Positions 29,954-37,921 of a stretch of 64,000 nucleotides of DNA are shown here, piece by piece. Where the stretch lies: the NCBI GenBank assembly GCA_902610175.1, contig CACLUR010000003.1:62001-126000 (forward strand). Direction: 5' to 3'. The position numbers and the translations under genes were made by a program. Below the pieces are notes generated by a model. The model was given only the letters and a program-made list of their open reading frames with translations. It was not told the DNA's origin and did no database searches. Each line of letters opens with the position of its first letter. Within the stretch, counting starts at the first letter, position 1. Origin of the DNA: an uncultured Alphaproteobacteria bacterium. GTDB taxonomy: Bacteria; Pseudomonadota; Alphaproteobacteria; HIMB59.

Positions 29954-30310
29954 ATGAATTTCTTTCAAGCTTATATTCACCCTCAACAAAAGGAGAGGTT
30001 ATTATTTTTAGGATACTGGATTGGGTCACTAATTATTTGGTCCTTTGCAATGAATGTAAGTTTAGTGATTGTTATCGTATTTTCCGTAATTGGAAATTAC
30101 GTAGTTGTAAGACCATTAGCAAAATTATTTTTTTTACTTAAAAACTTTGTAAATAAGAAGTTTTTCAATAACTTTGATATATTTGAAGCTTATTATGCAG
30201 GTTTTGAACTTGGAAGAGTAACTAGAATTTTTTTAAAATTATCTTTTTTTATGATTACTATGATTATTTCAAAAATTTTTATGGAAGTTTATTTAACTTT
30301 TATAAATTAA
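29954..30310 (+). CDS. Hypothetical membrane protein (118 aa)
   Basis: I do not recognise a family. The protein has about three hydrophobic spans (LFLGYWIGSLIIWSFAM; VSLVIVIVFSVIGNYVVV; IFLKLSFFMITMIISKIF) and a soluble loop FNNFDIFEAYYAGFELGRVTR between the second and third. It starts one base after the dehydrogenase stop, so it is likely in the same transcript. Its 3' end overlaps the convergent CDP-alcohol transferase gene by 11 bp. Confidence 0.6.
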   Translation: MNFFQAYIHPQQKERLLFLGYWIGSLIIWSFAMNVSLVIVIVFSVIGNYVVVRPLAKLFFLLKNFVNKKFFNNFDIFEAYYAGFELGRVTRIFLKLSFFMITMIISKIFMEVYLTFIN

Positions 30311-30917
30311 ATTCATTAAAACAAACAATAACCCTAGATATAAAAGTTATTAAACATAAAATCCCAAAAATAATAGATATGAAAATAAAAAAATTTGGGA
30401 ATAAGAGACACAAAACCATGAAAATTATTGTTTCTAAACCTTCAACTAATCCGGAAGTGTAATGAAAACTTTTTGGTAATCCTTCAATAGCATCATTTGT
30501 TTCTGAAATTTTATCTAATTGAGTTTGAATTGCCGCTTTTGCAAGAAATGTTGTACCTGTGCCTATGTACAAAAAAAGTAAAACCATTGATGAGTATGTG
30601 TAACTATTATTACTAAATCCAAATGCTAAAACAAATCCAGAATATATTGTAAAGTCACTGACAATATCCAAATATCCACCTAATGGAGTAGGGGTTGTAA
30701 GTCTGGCCATTGTTCCATCTAAGCCATCACATAACCTGTTTAAAATTAAGAGCGCTAGTGCAGCAAAATAGAATTGAAAAAAAATTAAAATACACATTAA
30801 AAAACCTAATATGAAACCTAATATTGTCATTTGATTAGGATTTAAAATTTTTAGTAAAAGTTTAGCTATTATTATTAATGGCTTTTGGGTAAAATTTTGA
30901 ATTTGGCGATCAAACAT
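30300..30917 (-). CDS. CDP-alcohol phosphatidyltransferase family protein
   Basis: Membrane enzyme that joins a CDP-activated lipid or alcohol to a second alcohol. The complete motif D-G-x2-A-R-x8-G-x3-D-x3-D is visible as DGTMARLTTPTPLGGYLDIVSD, near residues 70-91, with about six helices around it in 205 residues. The family includes PgsA, PssA and Pcs; the sequence does not match PgsA closely, and the acceptor is not known. It is divergent from ccdA across 40 bp. Confidence 0.85.
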   Translation of the reverse strand: MFDRQIQNFTQKPLIIIAKLLLKILNPNQMTILGFILGFLMCILIFFQFYFAALALLILNRLCDGLDGTMARLTTPTPLGGYLDIVSDFTIYSGFVLAFGFSNNSYTYSSMVLLFLYIGTGTTFLAKAAIQTQLDKISETNDAIEGLPKSFHYTSGLVEGLETIIFMVLCLLFPNFFIFISIIFGILCLITFISRVIVCFNEFNL

Positions 30918-30957
30918 CTGTGTTATTGTATGATTAGTATAATGTTACTATAATTTT

Positions 30958-31686
30958 ATGGTTCAAGATATTCCTCTAACTATAGCTTTTTTAGCTGGTA
31001 TTCTCAGTTTTCTCTCGCCTTGTGTTCTGCCCATAGTTCCAGGATTTATATCATATATCGTCGGCAAATCTTTTGCAGATTTACAAAATTCATCAGCAGT
31101 GAACACACTAAAATTATTACCTCATATTCTGTTATTTACTCTGGGTTTTTCTTTTGTCTTTATAATGATGGGCGCCTCTATTGATTTTTTGAGTGAAATA
31201 TTTTTTGATTATAAAAGGCAACTAAATTTCATATCAGGAATATTAATAGTTATTTTGGGACTATATTTTATTGGAATAATTAAAATTCCTTTTTTAGATT
31301 TTGAGCGTAAGTTCCATTTACAAGGTTTTCAAAATAATCATTTTTTTCCCTTTATAATTGGAGTTGCTTTTGCATTTGGTTGGAGTCCATGCATTGGACC
31401 AATTTTAGGATCAGTCTTAGCTGTTGCCATAAAAGATAGTGTTAACGGAATTATATTGTTGTCTTTTTATTCAATTGGCTTAGCAGTTCCTTTTATAATC
31501 GTTGGATTAATGATGAGTAAAATATTGATCATGACTAGTTTTTTAAATAAATACATTCGTTATTTTCAATTCATTACTGGTATTATTTTACTTGTAACAG
31601 GTATTTTAATCTTTAATGGTTCTATTCAATCGTTAGGATTTCAATTAAATTCAATTTTACCATCACTAGAAATGCTGCTTATTTAG
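30958..31686 (+). CDS. ccdA: CcdA/DsbD-type thiol-disulfide transmembrane protein
   Basis: Moves reducing power across the inner membrane, commonly for cytochrome c maturation. Six helices in 242 residues; the redox pair is Cys in LSFLSPCVLPIVPGF (helix 1) and in FGWSPCIGPILGS (helix 4), exactly the CcdA arrangement. There is no thioredoxin domain, as in short CcdA. The stop shares a base with the GTG start of the next gene (TAGTG). Confidence 0.92.
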   Translation: MVQDIPLTIAFLAGILSFLSPCVLPIVPGFISYIVGKSFADLQNSSAVNTLKLLPHILLFTLGFSFVFIMMGASIDFLSEIFFDYKRQLNFISGILIVILGLYFIGIIKIPFLDFERKFHLQGFQNNHFFPFIIGVAFAFGWSPCIGPILGSVLAVAIKDSVNGIILLSFYSIGLAVPFIIVGLMMSKILIMTSFLNKYIRYFQFITGIILLVTGILIFNGSIQSLGFQLNSILPSLEMLLI

Positions 31687-32381
31687 TGAAATTAACAAAA
31701 AAAATATCAATTTTATTTTTACTCATATTTTTTATAATTTTATGGATTACATATTTTTTAAACAAAGACTTTTTTCAACTTGAAACTTTTTTCTCTAATT
31801 TGGACTTAATTCAAAACTTCATATCTCAGAACTACTTATTATCAATATTAACATTTTTAACTTTATATAGCTTTTTAATTTTATGTAATTTTCCATTTGC
31901 TTCCATATTATCAATGATAAATGGTTTCTTATTTGGAACATGGATAGGTGGAGCTATATCTTTAATTGGTGGAACACTTGGTGCTTTGGGAATTTTTATA
32001 ATAGCAAAATATTTTTTCTCTGACCTTATTAAAAATAAATTTTTAAATAAATACTCCTATATAGAAAATTATTTTAATAAAAATGATTTAGAGTTAATGA
32101 TATTAATTCGTATTGTTCCCGGAACTCCTTTTTTCATACAAAACCTCATTTTAGCAGGTCTTGGCGCAAACAATAAAAAGTTTTTTTATACCACATTGTT
32201 TGGACTAGCCCCATGGTCATTTATCTTTGGCAGTATTGGTCAAGGGTTAGAAGAAATATTTATAAACAAAACGGAGTTAAATTTTTCTTTGATAGTTCAG
32301 CCAGAGTACTTAATTCCTCTAGGTTTTATCGCTTTTCTAATAATTATTATTATTTTATTCAAAAAAAAATTTAAAAAATGA
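31686..32381 (+). CDS. TVP38/TMEM64-family membrane protein
   Basis: DedA-like membrane protein (SNARE-associated Golgi protein domain), 231 residues. The domain core runs from NGFLFGTWIGGAISLIGGTLGALGIFIIAKYFF to LILIRIVPGTPFFIQNLILAGLG and the FGLAPWSFIFGSIGQGL tract, with the amphipathic re-entrant loops typical of the group. DedA/TVP38 proteins have been linked to lipid flipping and membrane homeostasis. The GTG start sits on the ccdA stop, suggesting translational coupling. Confidence 0.8.
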   Translation: MKLTKKISILFLLIFFIILWITYFLNKDFFQLETFFSNLDLIQNFISQNYLLSILTFLTLYSFLILCNFPFASILSMINGFLFGTWIGGAISLIGGTLGALGIFIIAKYFFSDLIKNKFLNKYSYIENYFNKNDLELMILIRIVPGTPFFIQNLILAGLGANNKKFFYTTLFGLAPWSFIFGSIGQGLEEIFINKTELNFSLIVQPEYLIPLGFIAFLIIIIILFKKKFKK

Positions 32382-32387
32382 GCTAGA

Positions 32388-34565
32388 TTAATTTATTACA
32401 TCAATAAACTTATTTTTGTACTTTTTAAACTGCCCTAGTAATATCGGACTAAATCCAATTACCGATTGAAACTTTTTTTCAAATTTAATTTGATTTTCTT
32501 TCTCAATAGATATCAAAAGAGGCCCATTTGTTTGAGGATCATAAAGTATGTTTTGCAATTTATTATTATCAGATATTGAGATTTCATTTGCTGAAGATAA
32601 ATAGTTATTTTCATAACCTGTGCTTTTAAATTTATTTAAAATCTCAATATTTTTATTAATAAGTATTTCTTCATTGAGTTTTATTTCAGCAGATAATCGT
32701 GATGATTTACAAATATCTGATAAATGTGATGCTAATCCAAAACCACTTATATCTGTTGTAATTTTGCTTTTAAAACTTTTTGATATTTCGGATATTTTTT
32801 TATTTCCTTTTTTCATCCATGTCATCAATGTTTGAAAATCTTTACTAGATAAAAGTTCTGAGTTATTATAATAAGCAGCTAAGAGATATCCTGTACCTAA
32901 AGGTTTTGAAAGATATATTAGCTCACTCTCTTTTGCCTGGCTTTTTGTAATTTGTTCTTCATATGAGCCATTCATTGTAATTGTAATTCCAGGTTCTTTA
33001 GATTGATAACTGTGTCCTGATGCAATAGTTGAACCATCTTTTATGGCTTCAGATTTTATACCTTTCATAAAATATTCCATGAAAAAACTTTCTATAATGC
33101 CTTCAGAGAAGGGCAGAGCCTGTGAAACACTTATAGTTTTTACTGATCCCCCACTTGATAAAATATCATTTTGAGAATGCAGATAGCTAATAATTCCAAA
33201 ATCAAAAGGGTTAAGTGATGTAAATAATTTTATGTGATCTATACTTTGCAATAAAGATATAGAATTAGTATTAATTATTGATGAGTCAGGCAAATCATTA
33301 TATGAATTTTCCTCATTTAAAAAATTAACTAAAGTTTTTTTTGAAACTTTAGAGCCACAACCCTGGCAATACATCTTAATATCTGTTGATTCCTCTAATT
33401 CATAATTTCTAAAAGACATATTTGATTTATAGGTAAATTTAAATTTGTTAATAAACCCTCTATCAATCCACTCTTTAAGTTTCCAGCACCATCGGCCATG
33501 AAAAGATAGGAAAAAATAGTTCAATAATGCCTTATTTTTATAAGTGCCAATTAAATATAACCAGTTTTTTTGTGCTTTAAATTTTATTAGAGGCATGCCA
33601 GTTAATTTTGAGAAAACATTTTCTTTTAAAACTTGTCCTTGACGGACTGCCATTACACCTGATTTAGGTCTAAAATTATCCACTACTGTACAGGCATCAC
33701 CTGTAACAAATATATTTTTATCATTAGTAGATAGAAGATTATTATCTACAACTATAAATCCGAGTTTATCTTTATTTAAATTACTTTCTGTCAGCCATTT
33801 TTCAATATTAGCACCAGAAGAAAGTAAAGCTAGATCACTATCAAATTTTTTTCCACTCTTTAGAACTAAATGTGTTTCATTTATAGAAATAACTTCTCCT
33901 AAATATTCTTTGATACCTAAATCGGAAGAAATTTTTTTTAGATTTTTTTTTGTTTTTTCATTTAAATTTTTTTCATTTAAAATATTTTTTCCAAAAATAG
34001 TTATCTCTAAATTATTTTCGTATCTTCTTGATAAGCTGAAAGCCAATTCATAAGATGCTACACCTCCACCAATAATTGAAATTCTATTTTTTTTATTACT
34101 AATAATTTGATCAATCTGACTCAAGTTATTTACGAGTGAGCTAATGGGTTTTGCAAAAAAACATTTAGATAATCTTTCTATTTTTATTCCTTTTGTATTT
34201 GAGATGGAACCAGTATTAATTGATAATAAATCATAGTTAATTGATGGAAAATTCTGTAATACTATTTTTTTATAGTTAGTTTCTAGCTTTATTACTTTAT
34301 CTTTTATAAAAGTTGCTCCCGCATTAAAGCACAGTCTTTGAAGATCAATGCTTATTTCTTCTATGCTAAAATCTCTATGAATATACCCAGGTGTCATCCC
34401 TGAGTAAGTAGCTTCAAAATGTTCACTAATTAAAATTGTATGCAATCCTTTTATTCTGTTCATGCATAATTTCTTTAAGATTTGTACGTTTGCATGCCCA
34501 CCTCCTATAAGTACCAATTGTTTGATAAGATTATTTTCAAACAAAATTAATTGCCGATCTCTCAA
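32388..34565 (-). CDS. selD: FAD-dependent oxidoreductase fused to selenide, water dikinase (SelD)
   Basis: Two-domain protein of 725 residues. Residues about 14-375 are an NDH-2-like pyridine nucleotide-disulfide oxidoreductase (FAD motif VLIGGGHANV 18-27, second Rossmann IIGGGVASYE 164-173, NIFVTGDAC 284-292). Residues about 396-725 are SelD, which makes selenophosphate from selenide and ATP: Cys403 and Lys406 in CQGCGSK match catalytic Cys17/Lys20 of E. coli SelD, with SGHS, SKPLGTG, TDISGFGLASHL and DPQTNGPLL retained. TTG start, so the exact N-terminus is uncertain. No selenium-using gene is near. It is divergent from groES. Confidence 0.87.
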   Translation of the reverse strand: MRDRQLILFENNLIKQLVLIGGGHANVQILKKLCMNRIKGLHTILISEHFEATYSGMTPGYIHRDFSIEEISIDLQRLCFNAGATFIKDKVIKLETNYKKIVLQNFPSINYDLLSINTGSISNTKGIKIERLSKCFFAKPISSLVNNLSQIDQIISNKKNRISIIGGGVASYELAFSLSRRYENNLEITIFGKNILNEKNLNEKTKKNLKKISSDLGIKEYLGEVISINETHLVLKSGKKFDSDLALLSSGANIEKWLTESNLNKDKLGFIVVDNNLLSTNDKNIFVTGDACTVVDNFRPKSGVMAVRQGQVLKENVFSKLTGMPLIKFKAQKNWLYLIGTYKNKALLNYFFLSFHGRWCWKLKEWIDRGFINKFKFTYKSNMSFRNYELEESTDIKMYCQGCGSKVSKKTLVNFLNEENSYNDLPDSSIINTNSISLLQSIDHIKLFTSLNPFDFGIISYLHSQNDILSSGGSVKTISVSQALPFSEGIIESFFMEYFMKGIKSEAIKDGSTIASGHSYQSKEPGITITMNGSYEEQITKSQAKESELIYLSKPLGTGYLLAAYYNNSELLSSKDFQTLMTWMKKGNKKISEISKSFKSKITTDISGFGLASHLSDICKSSRLSAEIKLNEEILINKNIEILNKFKSTGYENNYLSSANEISISDNNKLQNILYDPQTNGPLLISIEKENQIKFEKKFQSVIGFSPILLGQFKKYKNKFIDVIN

Positions 34566-34685
34566 TAAAATTGGGAACCATGAACATGATCTCTAAAATG
34601 CTTAATTTTGAGCTATTTTGCATATTAGGATAATCATTCAATTAAAGAGAAATTTCAATATTTTAATGATTTTTGGCTATTTGAA

Positions 34686-34713
34686 CTTGAAACCAGAAAT
34701 TTATTTACCATTT
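34686..34713 (+). promoter_or_regulatory. Candidate heat-shock (RpoH-type) promoter upstream of groESL
   Basis: CTTGAA at 34686-34691 and CCATTT at 34708-34713 are spaced like the alphaproteobacterial RpoH consensus (CTTG, 17-18 bases, CYTAT). It is 12 bases upstream of the CIRCE element. A housekeeping-like TATAGT at 34719-34724 is an alternative -10 without a good -35. Prediction by eye only. Confidence 0.4.
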
Positions 34714-34724
34714 ACATGTATAGT

Positions 34725-34751
34725 TTAGCACTCTATAAAAGTGAGTGCTAA
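34725..34751 (+). promoter_or_regulatory. CIRCE element (HrcA operator) of groESL
   Basis: TTAGCACTC, nine bases, GAGTGCTAA: a perfect match to the CIRCE inverted repeat, 30 bp before the groES start codon. HrcA bound here represses groESL until heat shock. The hrcA gene itself is not in the window. Confidence 0.95.
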
Positions 34752-34781
34752 AAACTAAATTTTAGATATAGAGGTACAAAA

Positions 34782-36748
<1,967 letters not shown>

Positions 36749-36768
36749 TTTTTCCATTTACTATTCTT

Positions 36769-36798
36769 AAAAAAAGCCGCTTTATGCGGCTTTTTTTT
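36769..36798 (+). terminator. groESL intrinsic terminator
   Basis: A seven-A run, GCCGC-TTTAT-GCGGC, then eight T: AAAAAAA/TTTTTTTT extends the stem. It lies 20 bp after the groEL stop and 22 bp before the MscS gene, and could also act on the opposite strand. Confidence 0.92.
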
Positions 36799-36820
36799 TA
36801 AACTAGTGTAATATTATTTT

Positions 36821-37921
36821 ATGAATTTTATCGAAAATTTTTACCTGCAAATTCTAAAAGTTTTTAGTGATGGAGTATTTGGTATAAGCTTAGGCAACAT
36901 ATTTATAATTTTATTATCTGTAATTATATCTCTGCTTATAAGAAGCATGGTTGCTAGAGTTCTAGTTAATAAATTAAAAAAAATCGTATCTAAAACTGGT
37001 AATAAAATTGATGATAAGTTATTCGAGGCATTAGTACCACCTTTTAAACTTTTGCCTGTGGTGATTGTTTTTCTTTTCATAACATTATATTTCGATATTG
37101 AATCAACTCTTGGGCTTTACTTTCAAAAAATCAATAACACTTTATCTACAATATTTGTTTTTTGGCTAATACATCAAGCGCTAATTCCATTCTCAAATAT
37201 ATTTGAAAAATTAGAGAAGATTTTGACCAAAGGCCTGGTCCTCTGGATAATAAAATCTTTAAAATATTTAATTATATTTTTAGGTATTGTAGCAGTGCTT
37301 GAAGTTTGGGGAATTAAAATTGGACCTGTTATTGCAGGTTTAGGTTTATTCGGTGTAGCCGTAGCCTTAGGAGCACAGGACTTATTTAAAAATTTAATAT
37401 CTGGTATTATGATATTGCTGGAAAAAAGATTTCAAATAGGTGATGTTATTAATGTTCCTGGTCACACTGAGGGAACTGTTGAGCATATAGGTTTTAGATC
37501 AACATTAATAAGAAAATTTGACTCTACCCCCATAACTATCCCAAATTATATTTTTGCCGAAGCGCCAATATTAAATTATACAAATAGAGATTATAGAAGA
37601 ATTAATTGGACTATAGGTCTTGAATATAATTCTACTTTAGCTCAAATAAAAAAACTTACTGAAAGCATATCGTCTTTTATAGAGGAAAATGAAAATTTTA
37701 TGGTTGACGCGAATTATAAAGCCTTTGTAAGAATAGAGAAATTTAATGACAGCTCTATAGATATATTAGTAATATGTTTTACATCCACAAAAGATTGGGA
37801 TAAATATCTGAAAATCAAAGAAGAATTAGCTATTAAAATAAAAGAAAATGTTGAAAAAATTGGTTTAAATTTTGCATTTCCCAGTCAGTCAATTTATATT
37901 GAAAAAACTGAAAATTCTTAG
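36821..37921 (+). CDS. MscS-family mechanosensitive channel
   Basis: Small-conductance channel that releases solutes on hypo-osmotic shock. About four helices before the pore helix GLGLFGVAVALGAQDLFKNLISG, the TM3 of the MscS family, then the beta domain start KRFQIGDVINV and the conserved TTVEHIGFRST-type stretch (GTVEHIGFRSTLIRKFD). Cytosolic alpha/beta vestibule to residue about 350. Length 366 is larger than E. coli MscS (286) owing to extra N-terminal helices. Fits a cell that accumulates betaines. Confidence 0.9.
   Translation: MNFIENFYLQILKVFSDGVFGISLGNIFIILLSVIISLLIRSMVARVLVNKLKKIVSKTGNKIDDKLFEALVPPFKLLPVVIVFLFITLYFDIESTLGLYFQKINNTLSTIFVFWLIHQALIPFSNIFEKLEKILTKGLVLWIIKSLKYLIIFLGIVAVLEVWGIKIGPVIAGLGLFGVAVALGAQDLFKNLISGIMILLEKRFQIGDVINVPGHTEGTVEHIGFRSTLIRKFDSTPITIPNYIFAEAPILNYTNRDYRRINWTIGLEYNSTLAQIKKLTESISSFIEENENFMVDANYKAFVRIEKFNDSSIDILVICFTSTKDWDKYLKIKEELAIKIKENVEKIGLNFAFPSQSIYIEKTENS

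Follow-up and report, generated by a model that had tools for sequence, protein, structure and literature searches.

A gene at positions 32388..34565 (−) of the window, i.e. the whole stretch of 64,000 nucleotides analysed here, encodes a fusion of a flavoprotein oxidoreductase with SelD (selenide, water dikinase) and is probably the host's source of selenophosphate for SelU/MnmH, the tRNA 2-selenouridine synthase, with the N-terminal domain probably feeding SelD by NAD(P)H- and FAD-dependent reduction of selenium species. Because SelU is encoded in the same genome as the fusion, selenium in this host, probably a marine bacterium with a tiny genome, most likely goes into tRNA rather than into selenium-containing proteins. 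As far as the passages on SelD fusions in Zhang & Gladyshev 2008 and PMC2432076 go, the fusion itself has already been described, with its CxxC motif, its abundance in the sea and the idea of a reductase; new here are the selenouridine trait as its assigned role and the statistics that link it with SelU.

The fusion gene and its conservation

The initial annotation listed a 725-residue protein. The 725-aa frame exists, both domains are matched in it and the same build recurs in the genus, but seven codons are probably over-extended at its 5' end. The TTG codon at 34544 (residue 8) is the better start because it is kept in close relatives, is an ATG in the same-genus locus L096 and is immediately preceded by a stop codon in four relatives (L009, L012, L014, L097); the true start is thus probably this codon, seven codons downstream of the listed one, for a protein of 718 aa. 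Since frames of the same build occur throughout the genus, and given the purifying selection described below, a chance match or artefact can be ruled out.

The N-terminal FAD/NAD(P)H domain (residues 16-375; 33441..34520, −) matches the NCBIfam model TIGR03169 (Nterm_to_SelD) over residues 17-375, with 309.9 bits against a cut-off of 310 for the window protein and 312.3 bits, above the cut-off, in the genome scan. The SelD domain (residues 398-716; 32418..33374, −) matches TIGR00476 (selD) over residues 399-691, with 145.7 bits against a cut-off of 125. Both domains of this model pair are therefore present in the same order and at the cut-offs, with scores at the edge. The highest NCBIfam bit score belongs to TIGR04369 (fusion_not_SelD), which shares the two-domain architecture and aligns at full length across both domains; however, its 332 bits fall short of the cut-off of 700, and the SelD catalytic residues are kept in the present protein. 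Among Pfam models, Pyr_redox_2 and AIRS are over their cut-offs and AIRS_C is slightly under (22.2 vs. 23.1).

The SelD domain is divergent, with 145.7 bits here compared to 257-300 bits in five other fusions, and the TIGR03169 score is 310-312 bits compared to about 490-530 bits in five other fusions. Fusions of the genus are about 28% identical to other fusions and form one deep clade, the stem of which is 1.28 changes per column long. The tree was built after 12 near-duplicate named loci had been dropped by hand; of the 5 named loci from the genus it includes 3, and picocyanobacterial TIGR04369 members are absent from it.

The CxGCxxK active-site motif (33348..33368, −) contains C400, C403 and K406, its CxxC reading CQGC (residues 400-403). 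The Cys/Lys pair attributed to SelD in the initial annotation is indeed present: in an alignment with solved SelD proteins, on which E. coli residue numbers were counted by hand, C403, K406, D427, D467 and D605 fall on E. coli C17, K20, D51, D91 and D227, the three aspartates of which we take to be metal-binding. The ATP motifs noted earlier also stand, in that the ATP-site residues of the SelD domain are kept; the DDAA motif is reduced, its first Asp being missing. All SelD catalytic positions are kept in the 11 aligned members of the genus. C400, C403, K406, D427, H463, D467 and D605 are invariant in 32 fusions (11 from the genus and 21 others), and in a larger alignment of 54 fusions (the window protein and 53 of 80 named loci) the invariant set comprises C400, C403, K406, D427, D443, D467 and D605, with H463 nearly invariant. 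A CxxC precedes the SelD lysine in all 80 named fusions, whereas the N-terminal domain contains no cysteine conserved among the 32 aligned fusions. Both domains are under purifying selection, with dN/dS of 0.12-0.19 for the N-terminal domain and 0.11-0.16 for the SelD domain in 8 of 9 genus pairs, the ninth pair being saturated. The protein is real and belongs to a known fusion family, within which it is divergent but constrained.

Predicted structure

An AlphaFold2 model built from 54 sequences (pLDDT 86.3, pTM 0.87) gives the C-terminal domain a SelD fold (Aquifex SelD 2yye, Z 36.4; 2zod, Z 34.7; E. coli 3u0o, Z 34.6). The linker (residues 377-399; 33369..33437, −) is of low confidence, with pLDDT below 50 at residues 382-400, and is probably flexible. 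The best structural match of the N-terminal domain model is NDH-2 (Z 38), followed by sulfide:quinone reductase (Z 35) and FSP1 (Z 31); together with the TIGR03169 match at about the cut-off, this bears out the earlier description of the flavoprotein as NDH-like. Sulfide:quinone reductase has conserved catalytic cysteines; in contrast, the N-terminal domain shares the predicted fold of these flavoproteins but has none. An NDH-2 fold without conserved cysteines suggests that the domain may pass electrons from FAD to something outside itself, and the CxxC that adjoins the flexible segment is a candidate acceptor. The reductase role suggested for the flavoprotein in the initial annotation, reduction of a selenium compound to selenide, agrees with the hypothesis put forward in the passages of PMC2432076 on this fusion.

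Selenium genes in the host genome and in the genus

The host assembly (1,385,057 bases, i.e. 1.385 Mb, in 16 contigs; 94.6% complete) encodes a full-length SelU/MnmH, which scores 314.5 bits against a cut-off of 219.75, retains intact CWRGG (Cys-rhodanese) and P-loop motifs and is located on contig 2, separate from the fusion contig. The earlier remark that no selenium genes lie nearby proved accurate, as none of those searched for was found in the window beyond the fusion. The user of the selenophosphate had been left open among selenocysteine, SelU and selenoneine; in the proposed genome-wide check for selA, selB, selC, selU, senA and senB, SelU alone was present over its cut-off, and the genes for selenocysteine and selenoneine were not found over theirs. 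The annotation would have assumed a changed role had the genome lacked every other selenium gene; as SelU is present, this case did not arise.

Profile searches yielded no match to selA in the host genome, and neither selB nor tRNA-Sec was over the cut-off in any of 60 genomes, the host included; sub-threshold selB matches are other translation GTPases, judged by length, and sub-threshold tRNA-Sec matches score like other tRNAs. Selenocysteine use in the host was thus rejected at the cut-offs used, and so was selenoneine use, there being no match to SenA and a best SenB score of 19.9 bits against a cut-off of 300. Only one SelD, the fusion, is over the TIGR00476 cut-off in this genome. Two weaker matches were rejected as a second SelD, one being thiL, which adjoins SelU, and the other probably purL, by frame length alone. 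At the locus L004 (498-2460), SelU and thiL, the latter encoding a SelD-like kinase of the AIRS family, converge and overlap by about 23 bases; in the genus, SelU is repeatedly flanked by a weak match to the SelD model.

Among 150 genomes of the order, SelD is over the cut-off in 37 and SelU in 41 of the 52 genomes of the genus, and neither was found in the 98 genomes of the sister family. Within the genus, 29 genomes contain both genes, 8 SelD only, 12 SelU only and 3 neither. The genomes with a single gene count against the SelU reading, although contigs missing from the assemblies might account for them. Both genes are present in 8 of the 10 genus genomes with completeness above 90%, and one of the two genes in the other 2. 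G002, a genus genome assembled as a single contig (99% complete), encodes the fusion and SelU, with selB and tRNA-Sec not over the cut-off. The fusion is the only selenophosphate synthetase found in the host genome, and its product would supply SelU/MnmH, the enzyme that puts selenium in place of sulfur in 2-thiouridine at the wobble position of some tRNAs. The selenium trait of the genus therefore appears to be restricted to selenouridine.

Association of the fusion with SelU and SelA

In 398 genomes of the phylum, the fusion was identified in 29, SelU over the cut-off in 108 and SelA in 51. All 29 fusion genomes encode SelU, compared to 108 of 398 overall (Fisher p = 1.7 × 10−18, kinship ignored), and none encodes SelA (p = 0.016, and p = 1.3 × 10−5 among SelU holders, kinship again ignored). 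The fusion genomes represent 7 families, 21 of the 29 coming from a single one, and in 16 of the 29 no more than 2 kb separates SelU from the fusion match. Thirteen further genomes, in which TIGR03169 is over the cut-off in a frame of only 375-620 aa, were treated as unfused (9 of 13 with SelU, 1 of 13 with SelA), and a contig-edge frame of 416 aa in G468 was counted as fused. One genome of the fusion-rich family f14, G324, has SelA and SelU without the fusion, the pattern expected if the fusion and selenocysteine exclude each other there.

In the 80 named loci, with flanks of up to 6 kb, SelU was found near the fusion in 16, SelA in 7 and SelB in 5, and SelU and SelA never occur together at one locus (0/80). 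An exclusive fusion-SelU link was rejected as a general rule, given SelA beside the fusion in 7/80 loci and SelB in 5/80. The seven loci with selA near the fused selD are L101, L104, L115, L127, L135, L155 and L165, five of which also have selB; since selA adjoins the fusion in these loci, some fused SelDs probably serve selenocysteine.

Proposed mechanism and alternatives

We infer what each domain does, the route of the electrons and the part that the CxxC plays; the domain make-up, the conserved residues, the purifying selection, the presence of SelU and the absence over the cut-offs of selenocysteine and selenoneine genes are results of the analysis. Most likely, the N-terminal domain would take electrons from NAD(P)H via FAD, and these, directly or via C400/C403, would convert oxidised or thiol-bound selenium to selenide at the SelD active site, on the probably flexible linker.

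The part of this scheme with the most serious competitor is the N-terminal domain. Rather than reducing selenium, it might serve as an NDH-2-like or redox-sensing module whose task is to hold the SelD CxxC in its reduced form or to link selenophosphate synthesis with the NADH/quinone state, a reading that we consider possible but less likely than selenium reduction. It agrees with the first rank of NDH-2 among the fold matches (Z 38), with an invariant CxxC adjoining the flexible linker, and with an N-terminal domain that has no conserved cysteine and therefore no classical disulfide-reductase centre. Nevertheless, the fusion of this domain specifically to SelD in many phyla and the putative selenate transporters beside some loci fit preparation of a selenium substrate equally well, and the two ideas may describe one and the same reaction.

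The SelD domain, in turn, could have ceased to make selenophosphate and have acquired another role, e.g. making a different phosphate donor, as the model name 'fusion_not_SelD' would have it. The top NCBIfam bit score of TIGR04369, the long divergent stem of the genus clade and the reduced DDAA motif point in that direction, but ordinary fusions also reach 412-507 bits on TIGR04369, the cut-off of which is far off, whereas the TIGR00476 cut-off is passed and the catalytic positions are all kept in the 11 genus members; moreover, SelU needs selenophosphate and is in the genome, where the fusion is the sole SelD over the cut-off. We therefore regard loss of SelD function as improbable. Still less probable is that selenophosphate feeds a use outside the families searched, besides or instead of SelU, such as the labile selenium cofactor of molybdenum hydroxylases (YqeB/YqeC) or ovoselenol: the host genome, at 94.6% completeness, leaves room for it, but SelU suffices as a user, and the 99% complete single-contig G002 has the fusion and SelU with no selB or tRNA-Sec over the cut-off.

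Under the preferred reading, in which the fusion provides selenophosphate for SelU, a broader and tentative proposal, which we would not hold with much confidence, is that the fusion acts as a self-contained module: NAD(P)H-dependent reduction and ATP-dependent phosphorylation, coupled via the CxxC, would turn scarce oxidised seawater selenium into selenophosphate without free selenide, with the tRNA wobble base as the sole output in the genus, and the module would be tied mostly to selenouridine and less to selenocysteine in bacteria at large. Most optional traits are lost in free-living bacteria whose genomes are very small, so a two-gene selenium pathway kept just for tRNA modification suggests that selenouridine pays its way in such genomes.

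Relation to known systems

According to the passages on SelD in Zhang & Gladyshev 2008 (PMC2398784), Ndh-SelD fusions make up ~40% of Cys-type SelDs in ocean metagenomes, and all have the CxxC, which is rare in single-domain SelD. The protein described here shares with these marine fusions an NDH-type FAD domain that precedes a Cys-type SelD, the active-site CxxC and an aquatic source; it differs, to the extent that those passages describe them, in that the fusions of the genus form a deep divergent clade of their own and that here a partner pathway has been identified in the host genome. In the relevant part of PMC2432076, the NADH oxidoreductase is proposed to reduce a selenium compound for SelD, and a short list of Sec-free genomes for examining this 2008 reductase hypothesis is now available. 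The section of PMC4561486 on fusions names Ndh-SelD as the commonest and reports selenocysteine machinery in all genomes with such fusions, a remark with which the strict fusion-SelU pairing in the phylum survey contrasts. A passage of PMC1273633 separates cyanobacterial fusions from likely true SelD orthologs. The present genome shares with the SelD-SelU (YbbB/MnmH) selenouridine trait the presence of SelD and SelU without selenocysteine genes over the cut-offs, but its SelD is fused and its selU is not adjacent, whereas selD and selU usually form one operon according to the passage of PMC1794560 on this trait. In the literature searched, only PMC2398784 and PMC4561486 came up for the fusion under its name. 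This literature contained no statement pairing the fusion with SelU, no biochemistry of any SelD fusion and nothing on selenouridine in SAR11; for selenium in HIMB59 it yielded only a fish-farming paper.

Gene neighbourhood of the fusions

Searches of 30000-37000 returned no RNA elements at gathering scores, and promoter and terminator scans gave chance-level results only. Two genes that overlap by one base run toward the fusion gene (30958-32381), namely one for a CcdA/DsbD-type membrane protein (30958..31686, +) and, downstream of it, one for a VTT-domain (TVP38/DedA-like) membrane protein (31686..32381, +), which is convergent with the fusion. The CcdA-VTT-fusion order is kept in the same-genus loci L095, L096, L098 and L099 and partially in L097, CcdA being present in 4/5 and VTT in 5/5 of the same-genus named loci. 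Near the other fusions, VTT was found in 2/75 cases, with weak similarity, and CcdA in 0/75. The two genes were thus rejected as conserved selenium neighbours, being syntenic in the genus but almost absent near other fusions.

In 15 of the 80 named loci there is a protein related to the putative selenate ABC-transporter binding protein (TIGR04553), with a score of 427 bits in L116. Across L106, L116, L118, L122, L127, L132, L145, L148, L161, L163 and L168, this protein and a PhnE-like permease recur near the fusion, a combination that is likely to be a selenium import module and that is found chiefly in Marinobacter.
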